A stretch of 64,000 bases of DNA from Flavisolibacter nicotianae (GTDB lineage: Bacteria; Bacteroidota; Bacteroidia; Chitinophagales; Chitinophagaceae), in the NCBI RefSeq assembly GCF_003628535.1, contig NZ_RBCI01000002.1:62001-126000 (forward strand), in the 5' to 3' direction. The notes under the pieces were generated by a model. The model was given only the letters and a program-made list of their open reading frames with translations, was not told the origin of the DNA and made no database searches. This document shows positions 21,548 through 28,946 of this stretch, piece after piece. The translations under genes and the position numbers were made by a program. Every line of letters begins with the position of its first letter. Position 1 is the first letter of the stretch.

Positions 21548-23167
21548 ATGCAAATCGTCTTCATTCAATATATTTTTCTCATCCTGATCATCCTGGCACT
21601 GGTGATGGTTGCCAACAAACTTCGGTTGGCTTATCCGATTGTACTGGTCGTGGGCGGGTTGTTATTGAGTTTCACATCTGTTTTCTCGTATATCACCATC
21701 GATCCCGACCTGGTGTTCTTTATTTTTCTGCCGCCGCTTCTTTACGATGCCGCCTGGCAGGTGTCGTGGAAAGAGTTCTGGAAGTGGCGAAGGGTCATTA
21801 CCAGTTTTGCCTTTCCGATCGTCATCATCACCTCGTGCGTCATTGCATTTGTCTCCAACGCCATCATTCCCGGCTTTACGCTGGCCCTGGGGTTTTTGCT
21901 GGGTGGAATCATTTCGCCTCCGGATGCGGTTTCGGCCACCACCATCATGCGCCAGGTAAAAGTTCCGCGGTCGCTCCTCAGCATCATCGAAGGCGAGAGC
22001 CTGCTCAACGACGCCTCCTCACTCATTGTTTTCCGGTTTGCGCTGGCGGCCGTGGTCACCGGGCAGTTTCATGTGGGAGAGGCTGCCATGAGCTTCGCCC
22101 TGGTCATTGCAATGGGCATTCTCATCGGGCTGGTCGTCGGGGCTGTGTTTTATGCCGTTCACCGCTTGCTGCCAACCAATTCCAACATCGAAACGGTGCT
22201 GACTCTCCTGGCGCCTTACTGCATGTACTATGCCGCGGAGCACTTTCATTTTTCAGGCGTTCTTTCTGTTGTTTGTGGCGGCCTTCTCCTGTCGAACCGC
22301 CGGCAGGACATGCTAAGCTACAGGAGCCGCCTGGAAGGAATCAACGTTTGGGCAAACGTGGTGTTTGTGTTGAACGGGCTGGTGTTTTTGCTCATCGGGC
22401 TCCAATTGCCAACGATCGAAAACCAGTTGGGAACAATCAGTACGGTCCGGGCCATCGGTTATGGCCTGGCTATTTCCGCCATCCTGATTGTTACCCGTAT
22501 GCTGTGCACCTTCGGCGCTTCGCTTTTCACCCGTATGGCCAGTCGTTTCATCACCGTGGCCGACCCCGAACCGGGGTGGAAGGCGCCGCTGATTACGGGA
22601 TGGGCAGGAATGCGTGGCGTGGTGTCGCTGGCTGCTGCATTATCCATTCCTTTACTGATCAACGGCGGGCAGGCGTTTCCCTACCGCAACCTGATCCTGT
22701 TTATCACCTTCATCGTTATCCTCGTTACCCTTGTGCTCCAGGGCCTGACGCTTCCGTGGCTGATCCGCAAAGTGGAAATGGAAGACAAGTTCTCGCCGCT
22801 GAGCGACCAGCAGCAGGAGTTCATCATTCAAAAGAAGATTGCCCAGAGCTCATTCAACTACCTGCAGCAGAAATACGGCGATGACCGGCTGCAAAACGAC
22901 CACCTGAAAAACCTGCTGACGCGGTTGCAGCTTGACCTGAATTTTTTCGGCCAGGATATCGACGCGTTGAACAGCGCTAACGGCAACACCTTGTCGGATT
23001 ACCGGCGCATTTACCTGGAACTGCTGGAAGAGCAACGAAAATTGCTCCACCAGATGAACCAGCGCACGGAATTCGATGAAGAGTTGATCCGGAAATACCT
23101 TGCCCTGATCGATTTGGAAGAACTCAAGGTACGGGAAAAGCGGCTGCAGGAACGCGAAGAGAACTGA
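21548..23167 (+). CDS. CPA1-family Na+/H+ antiporter
   Basis: Inner-membrane monovalent cation/proton antiporter, 539 residues. About twelve hydrophobic helices occupy residues 1-400, with [19 protein letters not shown] (the conserved PDA near the ion site), [17 protein letters not shown], and [19 protein letters not shown]. The C-terminal 130 residues are a charged cytoplasmic tail with coiled-coil character ([29 protein letters not shown]). Sodium or potassium preference cannot be read. It stands alone, 118 bp from the preceding cupin gene. Confidence 0.93.
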
Positions 23168-23307
23168 CAGTTTTGGCAACAGGAATTGATGTGTGCTTTT
23201 TTCTGGCCCAAATGTTCTGTACTCCCCTTGCATCATTCCCCTGTCTCGTGAGTCATGTTCGACTTTCTGCCGTTTGTGATTGTTTATCTTTCCCTGAAAA
23301 ATTACGC

Positions 23308-23625
23308 ATGTTGTTAACGACAACACCTACCATCGAAGGCCGGCCCATCCGGGAGTACCTTGGCATTGTGACGGCAGAAACCATCATCGGCGCCAATATC
23401 GTCAAGGACCTTTTTGCGGGTATCCGCGACATTGTCGGCGGCCGCAGCGGCACGTATGAAAGAGTGATAGAGCAGGCCCGGGTCAATGCCCTGCAGGAGC
23501 TGGAAGCAAAGGCTGCGCAGATGGGGGCGGATGCTGTGGTGGGCATCGATCTTGACTTCGAAACCGTGGGCAGTGGCGGCAGCATGCTGATGGTCGTGGC
23601 CAGCGGCACGGCGGTGAGACTTTGA
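23308..23625 (+). CDS. YbjQ/UPF0145-type heavy-metal-binding domain protein
   Basis: Small cytoplasmic protein of 105 residues in the YbjQ family. The start at ATG 23308 gives [21 protein letters not shown]. Family marks are [23 protein letters not shown] and [16 protein letters not shown] followed by a Gly-rich [10 protein letters not shown]. The family is called heavy-metal-binding from one structure, but its role is unproven. A near-match -7 box (TATCTTTC) lies near 23285. Confidence 0.9.
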
Positions 23626-23688: not shown

Positions 23689-24780
23689 TTAAAAACTGAC
23701 CGCTATGGACGTGGCAAGCCATGTGCTGTTGGTTGTCAACACCCGGTTTCTTTTTTCAAAGATCTTGTCTTTGCTGTTCAGTGTTCTTGCCTCGATACGC
23801 CATAACAGATTTGCCTTTATGCTGAAGTCGAAATTGAGCGAGTAGCCCACTGTTTGAAACCCGTTTGCAGTTCGTGTGGGGATCACGACGCCCTGCTTGT
23901 CGGAATAAAATTCGGACCTTGCAGTCGCTGCTACTTTCTCATTCAGTTGATACCTTGCGATCACTACCGGTGCATACCAGCTATCCATTTTTACACTGCC
24001 TTTTGACTGCTGCTCCATTCCAGCATCTATTCCCGCGATGAGTGAAAATGCTTTGCTGATGTGGAAAGTGCCATAGATGTTTTGGAAGTATCGCCATCGC
24101 CTTGCACTATCCGGCTTATCGTTACCAATAAACGTACTCCAGTTTAGCGTACTCCTCGCCGACGGTTTGTAGGTGACCTGGGTTCCGAATGCGGGAGTGG
24201 TATTTCCATCCACCCGTTTTATTCGTTGCCAGCCGTTCAGCAGCAAAAGGGCGAGGTACCATTTCTCCTCTTTCGTGGTGTAGCCCAACTTCAGGCCTGC
24301 TTCGTAATAGGGAGAGTTTTCTGCCAGGATGCTTCTTGTAAGAGTAGGACAATCTTTCCCGACAGCGCTTTCAAAACCGATGTGCGAGGGTAGGATACCT
24401 GCATCGAGCCAGAGGTTTGATTTTGCCGACAGCTTTACGCCAATATCGGCTTCAAAAATATGCCGAAGCACCTCCGGCTCTGCCGCCAAATTTGCAACCG
24501 CGTAGGTGCCTGTCATCAGGGCAAGATTCGCTCTTACCCTATCTTCCGAGTAACTGCCTTTGATCCATCCCAGGTTGAGGTTGATCTCACCGACCCTGTG
24601 GTAGCTATACAGGAAAAATGGTTGGGTATTGTTCAACGGCCTGTTGAAGTTATAGAGATAATACACTTCGGCATAGGCCGTAATCGTTACCGGTTTTGTT
24701 GTGTCTTGCGCTCCTGCCGTAATCGGAAAAATTCCCCAAACCAACCCTGTCAACACATCGATGGCGAACGATTTCTTCAT
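23689..24780 (-). CDS. OmpL/BBP2-like outer-membrane beta-barrel porin
   Basis: Predicted outer-membrane barrel of 363 residues. ATG at 24780 opens a signal peptide ending TAGAQ. Alternating strands rich in Tyr and Trp follow (ITAYAEVYYLYNFNRPLNN, WKYLALLLLN-like strands), and the protein ends SIAVSF with a terminal Phe. It resembles the BBP2 porins often found next to kdp genes in Bacteroidota. It is the last gene of the K+ operon and starts 11 bp after the Kup stop. A passage for K+ through the outer membrane is a reasonable inference. The TTG at 24789 is an alternative start. Confidence 0.85.
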   Translation of the reverse strand: MKKSFAIDVLTGLVWGIFPITAGAQDTTKPVTITAYAEVYYLYNFNRPLNNTQPFFLYSYHRVGEINLNLGWIKGSYSEDRVRANLALMTGTYAVANLAAEPEVLRHIFEADIGVKLSAKSNLWLDAGILPSHIGFESAVGKDCPTLTRSILAENSPYYEAGLKLGYTTKEEKWYLALLLLNGWQRIKRVDGNTTPAFGTQVTYKPSARSTLNWSTFIGNDKPDSARRWRYFQNIYGTFHISKAFSLIAGIDAGMEQQSKGSVKMDSWYAPVVIARYQLNEKVAATARSEFYSDKQGVVIPTRTANGFQTVGYSLNFDFSIKANLLWRIEARTLNSKDKIFEKRNRVLTTNSTWLATSIAVSF

Positions 24781-24791
24781 CTCCTTCAAAT

Positions 24792-26789
24792 TTACCTTGA
24801 CACCTTTACTTGTTTCAAAGAAATGTTCGCGACAGGTGCCACCACCAGGGGAAATTTTTCGATATCCACATTGCTTTGGTCCAGGCCAAATCCTTTTGCT
24901 TCGCTCAGGCTGTGGCCTTTGATCCAGAAATGAAATTTCATCACCAGGCGTTCAAAGAAGGGCAGTTCATTGTCTTCCGACAGGAACTTTTCCATTACCA
25001 CAAACTGGATGTCGCCGACCGGGTTAAGGTGCTGCAGTCTTTCGTATTTGCTTTCAACATGCACCTTGCCTTCTTTCACCAGATCTTCCACAACTTTCCG
25101 GAACAGCAGGTTTATTCGTGGCTGCACCCTGAAGCCTAGCAGGAACTCAACCCTGATAATATCGTTGGGAATGATTTCCGTTACCTTGTATTCACTTGTA
25201 TAAGGGTCGTCAACCGTGTGCACATGTACAAACCAATAGATATCGGCCCGCTTTGGCTTGCCGCTAAGGATGGAATAAATGATTTTATGCTCCACCTCCT
25301 TTGGATTGTCGGCACTGGTAAGGTAAACCAAATGGGTTGCGTATTTGGGAACGGTTGTATCGTTGCTTAGTTCTTTCAGCATGGGCAGGTAATGTTCCAG
25401 GCGTACAAATTCAACATACCTGTTCTTGATCTTTCTTGCCCGGTACATGACATACATTACGGCAATAATGCCGAATTCAAAAAACAGGAACATCCACCGT
25501 TGTTTTATTTTGGCGATGTTGGCAACGAAGAACGAAATTTCGACCGTGAGAAAAACAGCGAGGATCAGGCTTATCAGTGCAATGTGCCACTTCCTGACAA
25601 ACTTCATAAAGTAAAACATCAGGATGGTTGTCATCAGCATGGCAATGGTGATGGAAAACCCGTAAGCTGCTTCCATCTTGCTGCTTTCCCTGAAATACAG
25701 CATCACCGCTATACAGCCAAACCATAAAATGAAATTAATACTTGGGATGTAAATCTGGCCCCGGACGACAGTCGGAAATTTCACCCTGACTTTTGACCAG
25801 AAGTTTAGCCGCATGGCTTCGCTGATCAGGGTAAAGGAGCCGCTGATCAAAGCCTGGCTGGCAATGATGGCTGCGGCAGTGGCGATGAAGATGCCAATGA
25901 TTAAAAACCATTGCGGCATGATTTCGTAGAACGGATTTAAACCGTTCAGGTGACCATCTTTCCGCATCATCAACCATGCACCCTGTCCGAAATAGTTGAA
26001 GAGCAAAGCCGTCTTTACAAATATCCAGCTGATCCGGATGTTACCCCTTCCGCAGTGCCCCAGGTCGGAGTACAAAGCCTCCGCACCTGTTGTGCAAAGA
26101 AAGACGGAACCCAATAGCCAAAAGCCTCCCGGATATTTCGCTAACAGCTCATAGGCATAGACCGGACTGACGGCTTTTAAAATGGATGGATAAATCGCAA
26201 TAGAATTCACTCCAAGTACGGCCAACATGACAAACCAGAGCAGCATAATCGGACCGAAGGAACTGCCGATAAGGTTTGTGCCAAACTGCTGAAAGAAAAA
26301 CAGCAGCGAAATGATCGTGACAATAATACCGACTGTCAGCATGTTGCCCGGTGCGATGAGGTGTTCTAACCCGTGGACACCGCTAAGCCCTTCTATGGCA
26401 GAAGCAACAGAGATGGGGGGTGTAATGATGCCATCGGCCAGCAACGTCCCGGCGCCAATGATGGCCGGTATGTACAGCCATCTTCTGTAACGGCGCAGCA
26501 AGGCAAACAGGGAAAAGATGCCGCCTTCACCCCGGTTATCTGCTTGTAATGTCAGGATGATGTATTTGAACGTGGTCTGCAAGGTCAGTGTCCAGAACAC
26601 ACACGAAATGCCGCCGTAAACGAGGTGTTCCGATATTTCCCGCTTGCCGATAATTGAGCTCATGACATACAAGGGCGATGTGCCAATATCGCCATAGATA
26701 ATGCCCAGTGCCACGATTAATCCTGCTGCTGTTGCTTTATTGAAATTCTTGTTCACGTTTGCGATTTTATGTTGAAAGGCTGTTGACAT
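24792..26789 (-). CDS. kup: Kup-type K+/H+ symporter
   Basis: Low-affinity potassium uptake protein of the KUP/HAK/KT family, 665 residues. The start at ATG 26789 is preferred because it lies one base after the stop of a 40-residue membrane peptide. The N-terminal region has the signature ALGIIYGDIGTSPLYV, then GEGGIFSLFALLRR and ADGIITPPISVASAIEG. About twelve membrane spans end near residue 430, followed by a cytoplasmic C-terminal domain. In the operon it follows a KdpD/KdpE-like two-component system, which is unusual because Kup is generally constitutive in E. coli. Confidence 0.96.
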   Translation of the reverse strand: MSTAFQHKIANVNKNFNKATAAGLIVALGIIYGDIGTSPLYVMSSIIGKREISEHLVYGGISCVFWTLTLQTTFKYIILTLQADNRGEGGIFSLFALLRRYRRWLYIPAIIGAGTLLADGIITPPISVASAIEGLSGVHGLEHLIAPGNMLTVGIIVTIISLLFFFQQFGTNLIGSSFGPIMLLWFVMLAVLGVNSIAIYPSILKAVSPVYAYELLAKYPGGFWLLGSVFLCTTGAEALYSDLGHCGRGNIRISWIFVKTALLFNYFGQGAWLMMRKDGHLNGLNPFYEIMPQWFLIIGIFIATAAAIIASQALISGSFTLISEAMRLNFWSKVRVKFPTVVRGQIYIPSINFILWFGCIAVMLYFRESSKMEAAYGFSITIAMLMTTILMFYFMKFVRKWHIALISLILAVFLTVEISFFVANIAKIKQRWMFLFFEFGIIAVMYVMYRARKIKNRYVEFVRLEHYLPMLKELSNDTTVPKYATHLVYLTSADNPKEVEHKIIYSILSGKPKRADIYWFVHVHTVDDPYTSEYKVTEIIPNDIIRVEFLLGFRVQPRINLLFRKVVEDLVKEGKVHVESKYERLQHLNPVGDIQFVVMEKFLSEDNELPFFERLVMKFHFWIKGHSLSEAKGFGLDQSNVDIEKFPLVVAPVANISLKQVKVSR

Positions 26790-26790
26790 T

Positions 26791-26913
26791 TTAAAGCAGT
26801 CGAAGTTTTGCGATGACCAGGTAGAGAAGTGCCAGTGCGATAAGCCATGCCACAACGATCGTTAGAGTATCGCACAGGAGTTCCCCTTTCGAAAAATGCT
26901 TCTTCGATTTCAT
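26791..26913 (-). CDS. 40-residue single-span membrane peptide, unrecognised
   Basis: A small open frame between the response regulator and Kup. It starts at ATG 26913 with a basic stretch (MKSKKHFSKGE) and has one strongly hydrophobic segment at residues 17-35 (LTIVVAWLIALALLYLVIA), then KLRLL and TAA. It lies 25 bp after the regulator's stop, and its TAA is one base before the Kup ATG, so translation of the two is probably coupled. The topology (basic N-terminus, single helix, short basic C-terminus) recalls regulatory peptides such as KdpF that stabilise transporters, but the sequence does not match KdpF as I know it. Coding is inferred from position and composition only. Confidence 0.65.
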   Translation of the reverse strand: MKSKKHFSKGELLCDTLTIVVAWLIALALLYLVIAKLRLL

Positions 26914-26938
26914 GGTGAGACAAACTGTTGAATGATGG

Positions 26939-27625
26939 TTATTCTCTTGCTACGAATCGGTACCCTACGCCTGCTTCCGTTACAATGTATTCGGGGCGGT
27001 TCGGGTCATTTTCCAGTTTTTTCCGCAGTTGTGCCGTAAATACCCGCAAATACTGCGACTGGTTGATAAAGCCGGGTCCCCAGATTTCCCTGAGCAAATA
27101 ATGATGGGTCAGGACCTTGCCTTCGTTCCGTGCCAGGAGCGACAGCAGGTTGTATTCTGTTGAGGTGAGTTTGACAAACTCGCTGTTCTTTTTCACTGTG
27201 CGTGCCGACAGGTCGATGATCAAATCCCTGCACTTGATCACCGGGATGCTTTCTTCACCGTTGGTGCTTCGTAGCGAAGAACGGATGCGGGCTAAAAGCT
27301 CTCCTGTACGAAATGGTTTTACCAGGTAATCGTTCGCTCCGTTGTCCAGGGCTTTGATGATGTCTTCTTCGCTGTTTTGAACCGATAAAATAATGACCGG
27401 GTTGGTGTACCACTCCCGTAATTTCTTCAGTACCTCATGCCCGTTTTCATCAGGCAGGCCCAGGTCAAGAACAATCAAATCGGGCGGATGATTGGCGGCC
27501 ATGATGGTTCCCTCTTTGGCTGTGGCAGCCTCCTTTACCGCGTAGTCGTTGCTTTGCAGGGTTATCTGCAGCAACTTGCGTATCTGCACCTCGTCATCAA
27601 TGACTAAGATTTCTGCCCTGTTCAT
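26939..27625 (-). CDS. KdpE-like OmpR-family response regulator
   Basis: Response regulator of 228 residues. The receiver has DDE at 10-12, phospho-acceptor Asp54 in VLDLGLPDENG, and Lys in YLVKPF. The C-terminal winged helix carries TSTEYNLLSLLARNEGKVLTHHYLLREIWGPG, followed by LRVFTAQLRKKLENDPNRP, which matches the KdpE subgroup closely. Its start overlaps the end of the sensor kinase by 29 bp. Four TTTATA half-sites upstream of the operon fit the E. coli KdpE operator pattern, suggesting autoregulation and control of Kup and porin. Confidence 0.93.
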   Translation of the reverse strand: MNRAEILVIDDEVQIRKLLQITLQSNDYAVKEAATAKEGTIMAANHPPDLIVLDLGLPDENGHEVLKKLREWYTNPVIILSVQNSEEDIIKALDNGANDYLVKPFRTGELLARIRSSLRSTNGEESIPVIKCRDLIIDLSARTVKKNSEFVKLTSTEYNLLSLLARNEGKVLTHHYLLREIWGPGFINQSQYLRVFTAQLRKKLENDPNRPEYIVTEAGVGYRFVARE

Positions 27626-28694
27626 TTTGAAATTTTAAATGCGATGTTTCCCCTTTTATCGAAATGGTAAACTTCGCGCCGCCAGTTTTCACGTTCTCCA
27701 ATGTAATGGTGCCATTCAGCGCTTCGACAAAACCCTTTACGATGGACAGCCCCAATCCCGTGCCGCCGGCGGCGGAATGCTTGAGCCGGTAAAACTTTTC
27801 AAAAACATAACCGATTTCATTCTCCGGAAATCCCGGTCCGTTGTCCTCTACAACAAGTTCCAGCACGTCAGCATAGGCGGTGGCCCTTATCCAAATGCTG
27901 CAATCGGCCCCGGTATACATGGCTGCATTGTTCAAAAGGTTGTACAGGATCTGTTCCAGCATTCCTTTGTCTAACCTGAAAAGCGGAATGCCGGGGTGAA
28001 TCGTGATGTGTATCTGCTGGGCAATGTGATTTTCTTCCACCCGTTTTACGGCATCATAGATGATTTCCGAAATGTCGCACCAGTCTTTTTTAGGTTGAAT
28101 AAAGCCTGCTTCGATCCGCGACATATTCAAAAGGTTATCGACTTGCTGGTTCAGCCGGAACGAAGCTTTGGCAATTTCGGAAATCAGTTCGCTTTTGTGC
28201 ACAGCATTCAGTTTTGCATTTCCGGCCTGCAGGTTATCGGTCGCAGCAATGATCGTGGAAAGGGGAGTCCGCAATTCATGTGAAAGCGAATTGAGCAAGG
28301 TGTTATAGAGTTTTACGGTAGCTGCTTTTTCTTCCCGCTGCCTTGCCAGTTTTTCGATCTGCCGGATTTTATAGGTGAGAACCGCATTGACCAGGGCTAT
28401 CACAAAATACATCAGCAGCAGAATTACATCTTCGGCAGAACTGACTTGCAGGGTGAAGTGTGGTGGAATGAAAAAATAGTCCCAAATGAACGCACTCAGG
28501 ACGGCAGCGGCAAGAACCGGAAAAATGTCCAAGGTGATGGCAAGAAGTGAAACGGAAAAAAGTAAAATAAAGGCAACCACTCTGTACCCGATAACTGCTG
28601 ACAGGCCATAGCAAACAATTGAAACAAGACAAACAAACCCGATGCTTATCATTAACTGTTTTGCCTTGCTTATCCTGTTCATAAAAAGTTCCAT
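27597..28694 (-). CDS. KdpD-like (DUF4118) sensor histidine kinase lacking the N-terminal KdpD domain
   Basis: Membrane sensor kinase of 365 residues. Four close hydrophobic helices (DUF4118, residues about 15-110) are the membrane part of KdpD. HisKA follows with NSLSHELRTPLSTIIAATDNL, then the ATPase with NLLNNAAMYTG, VEDNGPGF and GTGLGLSIVKGF. The large cytoplasmic N-terminal KdpD and universal-stress domains of E. coli KdpD are missing; in Bacteroidota they are often a separate gene, but none is encoded here. Upstream in-frame TTG at 28721 overlaps the -7 box, so I use ATG 28694 (28682 is possible). Confidence 0.9.
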   Translation of the reverse strand: MELFMNRISKAKQLMISIGFVCLVSIVCYGLSAVIGYRVVAFILLFSVSLLAITLDIFPVLAAAVLSAFIWDYFFIPPHFTLQVSSAEDVILLLMYFVIALVNAVLTYKIRQIEKLARQREEKAATVKLYNTLLNSLSHELRTPLSTIIAATDNLQAGNAKLNAVHKSELISEIAKASFRLNQQVDNLLNMSRIEAGFIQPKKDWCDISEIIYDAVKRVEENHIAQQIHITIHPGIPLFRLDKGMLEQILYNLLNNAAMYTGADCSIWIRATAYADVLELVVEDNGPGFPENEIGYVFEKFYRLKHSAAGGTGLGLSIVKGFVEALNGTITLENVKTGGAKFTISIKGETSHLKFQNEQGRNLSH

Positions 28695-28718
28695 CAGTTG
28701 CTGTTCGCGATCAAAGAA

Positions 28719-28726
28719 CAAAAGTA
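28719..28726 (-). promoter_or_regulatory. -7 promoter element of the K+ operon
   Basis: On the minus strand TACTTTTG is a perfect TAnnTTTG, 25 bp before the ATG at 28694. It directly follows the phased TTTATA sites. Confidence 0.7.
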
Positions 28727-28736
28727 ATTGGGCTCG

Positions 28737-28785
28737 TATAAAAGCGCTATAAAAGAAGACCCGGCTTCTATAAAGATTTTATAAA
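28737..28785 (-). promoter_or_regulatory. Predicted KdpE operator: four phased TTTATA half-sites
   Basis: On the minus strand TTTATA occurs at 28780-28785, 28769-28774, 28748-28753 and 28737-28742. Spacings are 11, 21 and 11 bp, so two pairs of TTTATA-N5-TTTATA lie on one face of the helix. OmpR-family regulators bind direct repeats about 11 bp apart, and the E. coli KdpE site as I recall it is TTTATA-N5-TTTACA. The block sits just upstream of the -7 box, where an activator would act. Confidence 0.65.
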
Positions 28786-28946
28786 GACAGGCTGCCCTTT
28801 CAGCAGGAATGAAAATCTTCCGGTTCGTCGCAATGGTGCGTCAATTGCCTGCCCCGTTGAATGTTCTGCCTGTTTGTAAAACTTCGCTACTGTCGCCGGT
28901 ATTGCCTCTTGCTCCCGCGTTTAACGCTTGCAAGAACTTTTATTTC

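Follow-up and report, generated by a model that had tools for sequence, protein, structure and literature searches.

Which genes does a KdpD/KdpE-type switch serve in a bacterium that has no Kdp pump? KdpDE is the textbook K+ switch and is treated together with the Kdp pump. The question is raised by a 64,000-nucleotide stretch of the Flavisolibacter nicotianae genome (the window; contig NZ_RBCI01000002.1, G000:C2:62001-126000 in our numbering, from a 6.09 Mb genome estimated to be 100% complete), where a two-component system heads a minus-strand series that ends in a K+ transporter and a porin. A preliminary description of this DNA had read the series as a Kdp-type two-component system connected to Kup and a porin, and we found all five of its open reading frames (ORFs), with the claimed overlaps and gaps, in the sequence. 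They encode a DUF4118 histidine kinase (HK) corresponding to the C-terminal half of KdpD (27597..28694, 365 aa from the ATG at 28694), a KdpE-type response regulator (RR) of 228 aa whose gene overlaps that of the HK by 29 bp (26939..27625), a predicted single-span membrane peptide of 40 aa that ends 1 base before the kup ATG (26791..26913), a Kup-family K+ transporter of 665 aa from ATG 26789 (24792..26789), and a BBP2 outer-membrane porin of 363 aa from ATG 24780, 11 bases beyond kup (23689..24780). The proposed wiring is supported by kup adjacency across related loci, by the absence of kdpA and by an operator of KdpE geometry, and the module is very probably a self-regulated K+ uptake operon under a short KdpD-type kinase and a KdpE-type regulator.

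Domain scans of the HK detected DUF4118 (1.1e-18), HisKA and HATPase_c in Pfam, and no KdpD N-terminal, Usp or GAF domain, as the preliminary description had anticipated for the N-terminal KdpD domain. The best NCBIfam match of the kinase is KdpD (9.3e-53), and its core is closest to KdpD among PDB entries (2.4e-36; next match 1.6e-24). The protein combines a DUF4118 membrane domain with a KdpD-type core; lacking the N-terminal KdpD/Usp and GAF domains of a full-length KdpD, it is at most a short or split form. The RR has the Response_reg and Trans_reg_C domains of the OmpR class, and its closest NCBIfam family is KdpE (3.8e-71, 239 bits; the next family scores 183, 56 bits less), at a score below the NCBI KdpE equivalog cut-off of 325 bits. 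Against the PDB it matched E. coli KdpE at 1.1e-63 and the next family at 3.2e-39, as expected of a KdpE ortholog. The RR also keeps the residues matching KdpE R193, R200 and T215 (by alignment, with the numbering offset set by eye), which passages of PMC3264566 describe as important for DNA binding in E. coli.

Across the whole genome we found no match to KdpA (PF03814), none to the KdpD N-terminal domain (PF02702) and no TrkH, so that the absence of KdpFABC suggested for this neighborhood holds genome-wide. With KdpA missing, control of kdpFABC is not available to this switch. The window HK is the only DUF4118 protein of the genome, which carries two Kup copies. Like its E. coli counterpart, the system has a regulator nearest KdpE, a kinase core nearest KdpD and a DUF4118 sensor; unlike it, the HK comes first in one operon, and the predicted target is Kup, the peptide and the porin instead of KdpFABC. 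E. coli Kup belongs to the same transporter family and is called constitutively expressed in a passage of PMC5458449, whereas the window kup sits in a two-component operon. Another parallel for the kinase is the split KdpD of Deinococcus radiodurans, which, as far as the cited part of PMC5716572 describes it, is likewise a KdpD C-terminal half with a separate RR; D. radiodurans, however, has kdp genes as target and a KdpD N-terminal protein, and the source genome has neither. Bacteroidota are counted among the phyla with mainly short KdpD in a section of PMC11018627.

Inspection of the region upstream of the HK revealed two predicted KdpE-type operators on the minus strand, each with two TTTATA half-sites and a 5-bp spacer: a distal one, TTTATAAAATCTTTATA (28769..28785), and a proximal one, TTTATAGCGCTTTTATA (28737..28753), which starts 32 bp after the distal. 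Ten nucleotides after the proximal operator stands a predicted promoter -7 box, TACTTTTG (28719..28726, minus), of the form TAnnTTTG, the Bacteroides -7 consensus. The HK ORF as listed starts at a TTG (27597-28721), and because TTG 28721 falls inside this box, the start is more likely the ATG at 28694. The 64-kb window contains two matches to the operator pattern, each immediately ahead of the HK, as compared with an expectation of 0.01 for the whole window. Its geometry is that of E. coli KdpE, which binds two 6-bp repeats, TTTATA and TTTACA, placed 5 bp apart according to the relevant part of PMC3264566. In the 6.1-Mb genome the exact 17-mer TTTATAAAATCTTTATR has a single copy; a second operator-like place, C1:722667, overlaps the start of a YqeY-like gene, has no -7 box at 10 nt and was taken as chance. 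A sigma-70 promoter and terminator scan performed no better than on shuffled sequence, and no Rfam family reached the gathering threshold in the window.

We then compared the flanks of related kinases, taken from 195 genomes of the same bacterial family and from 80 named loci (the best 80 of 367). Since the named loci were found with the DUF4118-to-H-box region as the only query, they were not selected for kup. Leaving aside the weak DUF4118 matches of genomes G149, G141, G016 and G077 and six duplicates, the set comprises 111 distinct loci, 37 from the family genomes and 74 named, with record titles that include Chitinophagaceae, Flavobacterium, Chryseobacterium, Cytophagaceae and Saprospiraceae. 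Among the carriers of the module are the cultured environmental strains Terrimonas pollutisoli H1YJ31 (L109) and Chryseobacterium formosense DSM 17452 (L183). A kup gene adjoins the kinase in 86 of the 111 (70 downstream, 17 divergent, 1 counted in both). The pairing with kup is the commonest form of the DUF4118 kinase among the loci found and is not peculiar to the source genome. Synteny is conserved to that extent, although only the window showed all five genes in this exact order, with the peptide ahead of kup. At the genome level, DUF4118 was detected in 40 of the 195 family genomes (39 over cut-off), Kup in 189 and KdpA in 104 (102 over cut-off). Two or more kup matches were present in 35 of 39 genomes with DUF4118 versus 40 of 156 without (p=1.5e-13, uncorrected for relatedness), and KdpA in 12 of 39 versus 90 of 156 (p=0.004, likewise uncorrected).

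The operator is conserved along with the kinase. Counting as perfect a TTTATA-N5 followed by TTTATA, TTTATG or TTTACA, we observed a site with at most one mismatch upstream of the HK in 95 of 111 loci (71 perfect, 24 with one mismatch), as against 3 to 19 loci for the other spacings from 0 to 11, 7 loci for the reversed pattern and 2.5% for shuffles. In 62 of the 95 operator-bearing loci TAnnTTTG lies exactly 10 nt past the proximal site, and 44 of them have a second site (up to two mismatches) starting at +31/+32 bp. The exact 17-mer gave 28 matches in the family genomes (backward control 12), and 26 of these lie in module promoter regions, before the HK, kup, the porin gene or a divergent gene for a secreted protein (for G095, a kup at a contig end); the other two (G183, G005) lie within other ORFs, in stretches that contain no module gene. 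A sample of the phylum yielded 15 exact 17-mers in 13 of 395 genomes, nine of them in K+ modules: at HK-RR-kup (G000, G389, G443), at TrkH (loci L220 and L222; in G275 with HK-RR, and twice in G458, once at the TrkH ORF and once just past the RR), between KimA and a divergent HK-RR (G226, L219), and before kdpABC operons with full-length KdpD and KdpE (G343 and G574; L217, L218). Judged from sequence, the arrangement exceeds chance: it recurs across the phylum, and both operator matches of the window lie just upstream of the HK.

The importer attached to the switch varies. Five of the 111 loci carry kdpA without kup, a KdpDE-type switch standing in front of kdpA in two of the 111 (L074, L077, one genus), and 20 carry neither. 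Among those 20, four have TrkH (L160, L176, L177, L179), two a KimA-type importer (L161, matching PDB KimA at 9.4e-71, and L135, assigned by its similarity to L161), and six end at contig ends (L131, L147, L150, L152, L153, L155). On a quick HK+RR tree of 81 loci, which includes only a subset of the kup-linked loci, importer type needs 13 changes (least possible 4, shuffled mean 19.5), and well-supported branches force at least 4 changes for kdp, 3 for TrkH and 2 for KimA. The preliminary description called the module rewired; this stands insofar as a single unit of switch and operator serves several kinds of K+ importer, but no direction of change is implied. On a quick Kup tree, from which five duplicate linked rows and two long-branch rows were left out, most switch-linked Kups fall into two lineages, while L110, L138 and L173 lie outside them. 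The source genome's other, unlinked Kup (C13) groups with the second of these lineages, and no operator site was found at it. A complete genome of the same genus in one contig (G004) has neither a DUF4118 match nor an exact operator; the module was therefore gained or lost within the genus.

The window Kup itself carries K_trans (PF02705, 2e-141) and K_trans_C (PF22776, 3.7e-20), as expected of the family, and its best PDB match is Potassium transporter 5 (1.7e-71); its score lies below both NCBI kup equivalog cut-offs. From this family membership the protein would transport K+. The porin matches BBP2 (PF07642, 6.3e-98), and its model is a 16-strand barrel (mean pLDDT 81.1) resembling general porins, among them Omp-Pst1 and OmpF (best E 2.1e-12). 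A BBP2 gene lies directly 3' of kup in 27 of the 62 co-directional loci with enough flank (the 70 minus 8 that are cut) and between the RR and kup in L142, L169, L173 and L175; 14 module porins share 29-51% identity with that of the window. The suggested outer-membrane component is hence frequent beside kup but not constant. Because the porin adjoins both kup and kdp, it probably has a role in K+ entry.

A family of roughly 200-aa proteins with a start that looks by eye like a signal peptide also recurs in these modules (L074:4474-5124; L082:9291-10007; L121:9796-10389; L145:9818-10408; L158:9773-10396; L170:3429-3992; L173:8180-8821). Three members scanned gave no Pfam match, and a model (mean pLDDT 68.5) had no PDB match at E<=0.001. 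In L082 the gene is divergent from the HK and has its own exact operator. Genome G056 (L076, 97% complete) has HK-RR, and an exact site immediately precedes a BBP2 porin gene there; the genome has no Kup match and is not among the KdpA-positive genomes.

Collectively, these data suggest the following sequence of events. The short KdpD-type kinase would respond, most likely to low K+, and phosphorylate the KdpE-type regulator, which would then fill the two TTTATA-N5-TTTATA operators that lie in tandem immediately ahead of the -7 box, at the position of a -33 element. This binding would activate HK-RR-peptide-kup-porin. Kup would import K+ across the inner membrane, the porin probably lets K+ through the outer membrane, and the 40-residue membrane peptide probably assists or modulates the importer as its partner; K+ entry would then turn the kinase off. 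Switch and operator would act as a unit, paired with Kup here and with KdpABC, KimA or TrkH in other Bacteroidota.

Several observations weigh against this interpretation. The genome-level kup counts ignore kinship among genomes, and the allowed half-site variants were chosen after the first loci had been inspected. No site with at most one mismatch was found at 16 of the 111 loci, five loci have a BBP2 porin but no importer (L076, L121, L145, L158, L170), and three have no recognized K+ gene or porin (L087, L141 and L045, the last cut by a contig end on its upstream side). Six of the 15 phylum 17-mers lie at no recognized K+ gene (L224-L229) and may be either chance matches or other members of the regulon, and the second G458 site precedes an aminotransferase gene. 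One-mismatch sites occur somewhere in the fetched stretch at 7 of 14 kdp loci without a DUF4118 kinase. Finally, all suggested K+ sites of E. coli KdpD are placed in the TM/GAF region in the pertinent section of PMC11018627, and the window kinase lacks the GAF part of that region.

This last point bears on the alternative that survives best, namely that the switch does control the Kup operon but responds through its DUF4118 helices to osmotic stress, Na+, ammonium or membrane state. Such a signal would fit a kinase without the N-terminal KdpD/Usp and GAF domains, the ammonium transporter gene upstream of HK-RR at one locus (L141:6283-7686, where no K+ importer was recognized), and the CPA1-type Na+/H+ antiporter gene (window 21548-23167, plus strand) that converges on the porin end of the window module. 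A YbjQ-like gene (23173-23625, plus strand) converges on the same end, and we found no evidence tying either gene to the module. The recognized cargo of the switch, however, is K+ uptake through four types of importer, which would be difficult to account for if the signal were unrelated to K+, and we regard a different signal as possible but unlikely.

A second alternative concerns the 40-residue peptide, which might be this system's KdpF, now in the service of Kup. The peptide has no Pfam or NCBIfam match at E<=0.01 and no convincing one at E<=10. When it was searched by tblastn against 109 related loci, the eight best matches (L083, L051, L108, L112, L046, L128, L118, L049; E 8.7e-4 to 0.098, 45-67% identity over 24-26 residues) all lay directly 3' of kup. 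A profile built from clean seeds and run on about 45,000 small ORFs, for which later E-values are circular, added L109 (after kup) and L126 and L056 (before kdpA), with no significant match among these ORFs away from kup or kdpA. A separate scan beside 110 kup genes placed the peptide at 10. One is the window gene; the other nine belong to the 17 kups of the divergent type, and in these nine the peptide ATG overlaps the kup end by 1 base (six loci), 4 bases (two) or 8 (one); two further candidates (L171, L181) look unrelated. No copy was seen beside the listed kup genes outside switch loci or in the nearest relative, L107, and 11 of 65 relatives have in the RR-kup gap another hydrophobic ORF, unlike the window peptide by eye. 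From this recurrence the predicted peptide is genuine and more than a chance ORF, and the best interpretation is a small, unnamed protein that partners K+ importers.

Like KdpF, as the alternative would have it, the peptide has a single predicted membrane span and is encoded directly beside an importer gene, and its relatives in L056 and L126 stand just before kdpA. It has no match to the KdpF family, however, at E<=10 in NCBIfam or Pfam, in searches whose HMMER filters may drop very short weak matches. In L056 and L126, moreover, a different ORF of 26 residues with the ending KPEKF immediately precedes kdpA, and ORFs of this kind, with the ending [KN]P[ED][KR]F, accompany 19 of 25 kdpA genes (endings read by eye). 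Because a separate KdpF-like ORF precedes kdpA, the peptide looks like a further small protein, and its identity with KdpF is improbable. Two genomes hold doubled modules of related interest. In L049 (G027) two switch modules adjoin, with the peptide and kup on one strand and HK-RR, HK-RR, kup and BBP2 on the other. Paraflavisolibacter caeni has two copies on one contig (L122, L126), the second followed by a further regulator gene, a peptide relative, a KdpF-like ORF and kdpA.

It is also conceivable that the regulator controls HK-RR alone and that kup and the porin are bystanders kept by linkage. In keeping with this, the site in co-directional loci usually lies upstream of the HK, and some kups are more than 1 kb downstream of the RR (L180, L182, L183). 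Yet those separated kups have an exact or near-exact site of their own, kup is itself preceded by an exact site in G123, G133, G078 and G036, kup and the HK share one intergenic region in the 17 divergent loci, and none of 20 orphan kups has a site with at most one mismatch, all of which renders linkage without regulation very improbable. That the TTTATA repeats are a basal promoter feature (an AT-rich -33 or UP-like element) or the site of another regulator is highly doubtful, for although the site occupies the expected -33 position 10 nt before the -7 box, it is missing from the same 20 orphan kups, no exact copy occurs at 14 kdpA loci with other regulators and no DUF4118 kinase beside kdpA, the exact 17-mer is single in the genome, and half-sites and spacer match the TTTATA/TTTACA sites with 5-bp spacer mapped for E. 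coli KdpE in the excerpted part of PMC3264566.

The kdp operons of the family offer a further comparison. Like the window, these carry a BBP2 porin in the fetched stretch at 11 of 14 loci and, in L056 and L126 (the latter also with a DUF4118 switch), a peptide relative before kdpA; unlike the window, all 11 scanned have a sigma-54-type activator as regulator and a HAMP-PAS kinase without DUF4118. We consider it likely that switch and operator together make up a portable control unit for K+ starvation, that this unit is kept while KdpABC, Kup, KimA and TrkH replace one another as its importer, often accompanied by a porin of their own, that in Chitinophagaceae it is joined by a peptide translationally coupled to Kup and found also in some kdp operons, and that the Kdp pumps of the family passed to a sigma-54-type system. 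The preliminary description knew of no account of this arrangement, and a search of open-licence literature by titles and abstracts likewise returned no description of KdpDE paired with Kup. What is new is that pairing and the interchangeable importer; the parts, except the peptide, are of known kinds.

If this is correct, the switch and its DNA site would be the conserved part of the system and the importer the exchangeable one. A 17-bp signature would then mark the low-K+ regulon in a large phylum, and K+ sensing by a minimal DUF4118 kinase would become directly testable. BBP2 porins would be placed in the context of K+ uptake, and a small membrane protein would emerge as a possible modulator of Kup as well as Kdp.

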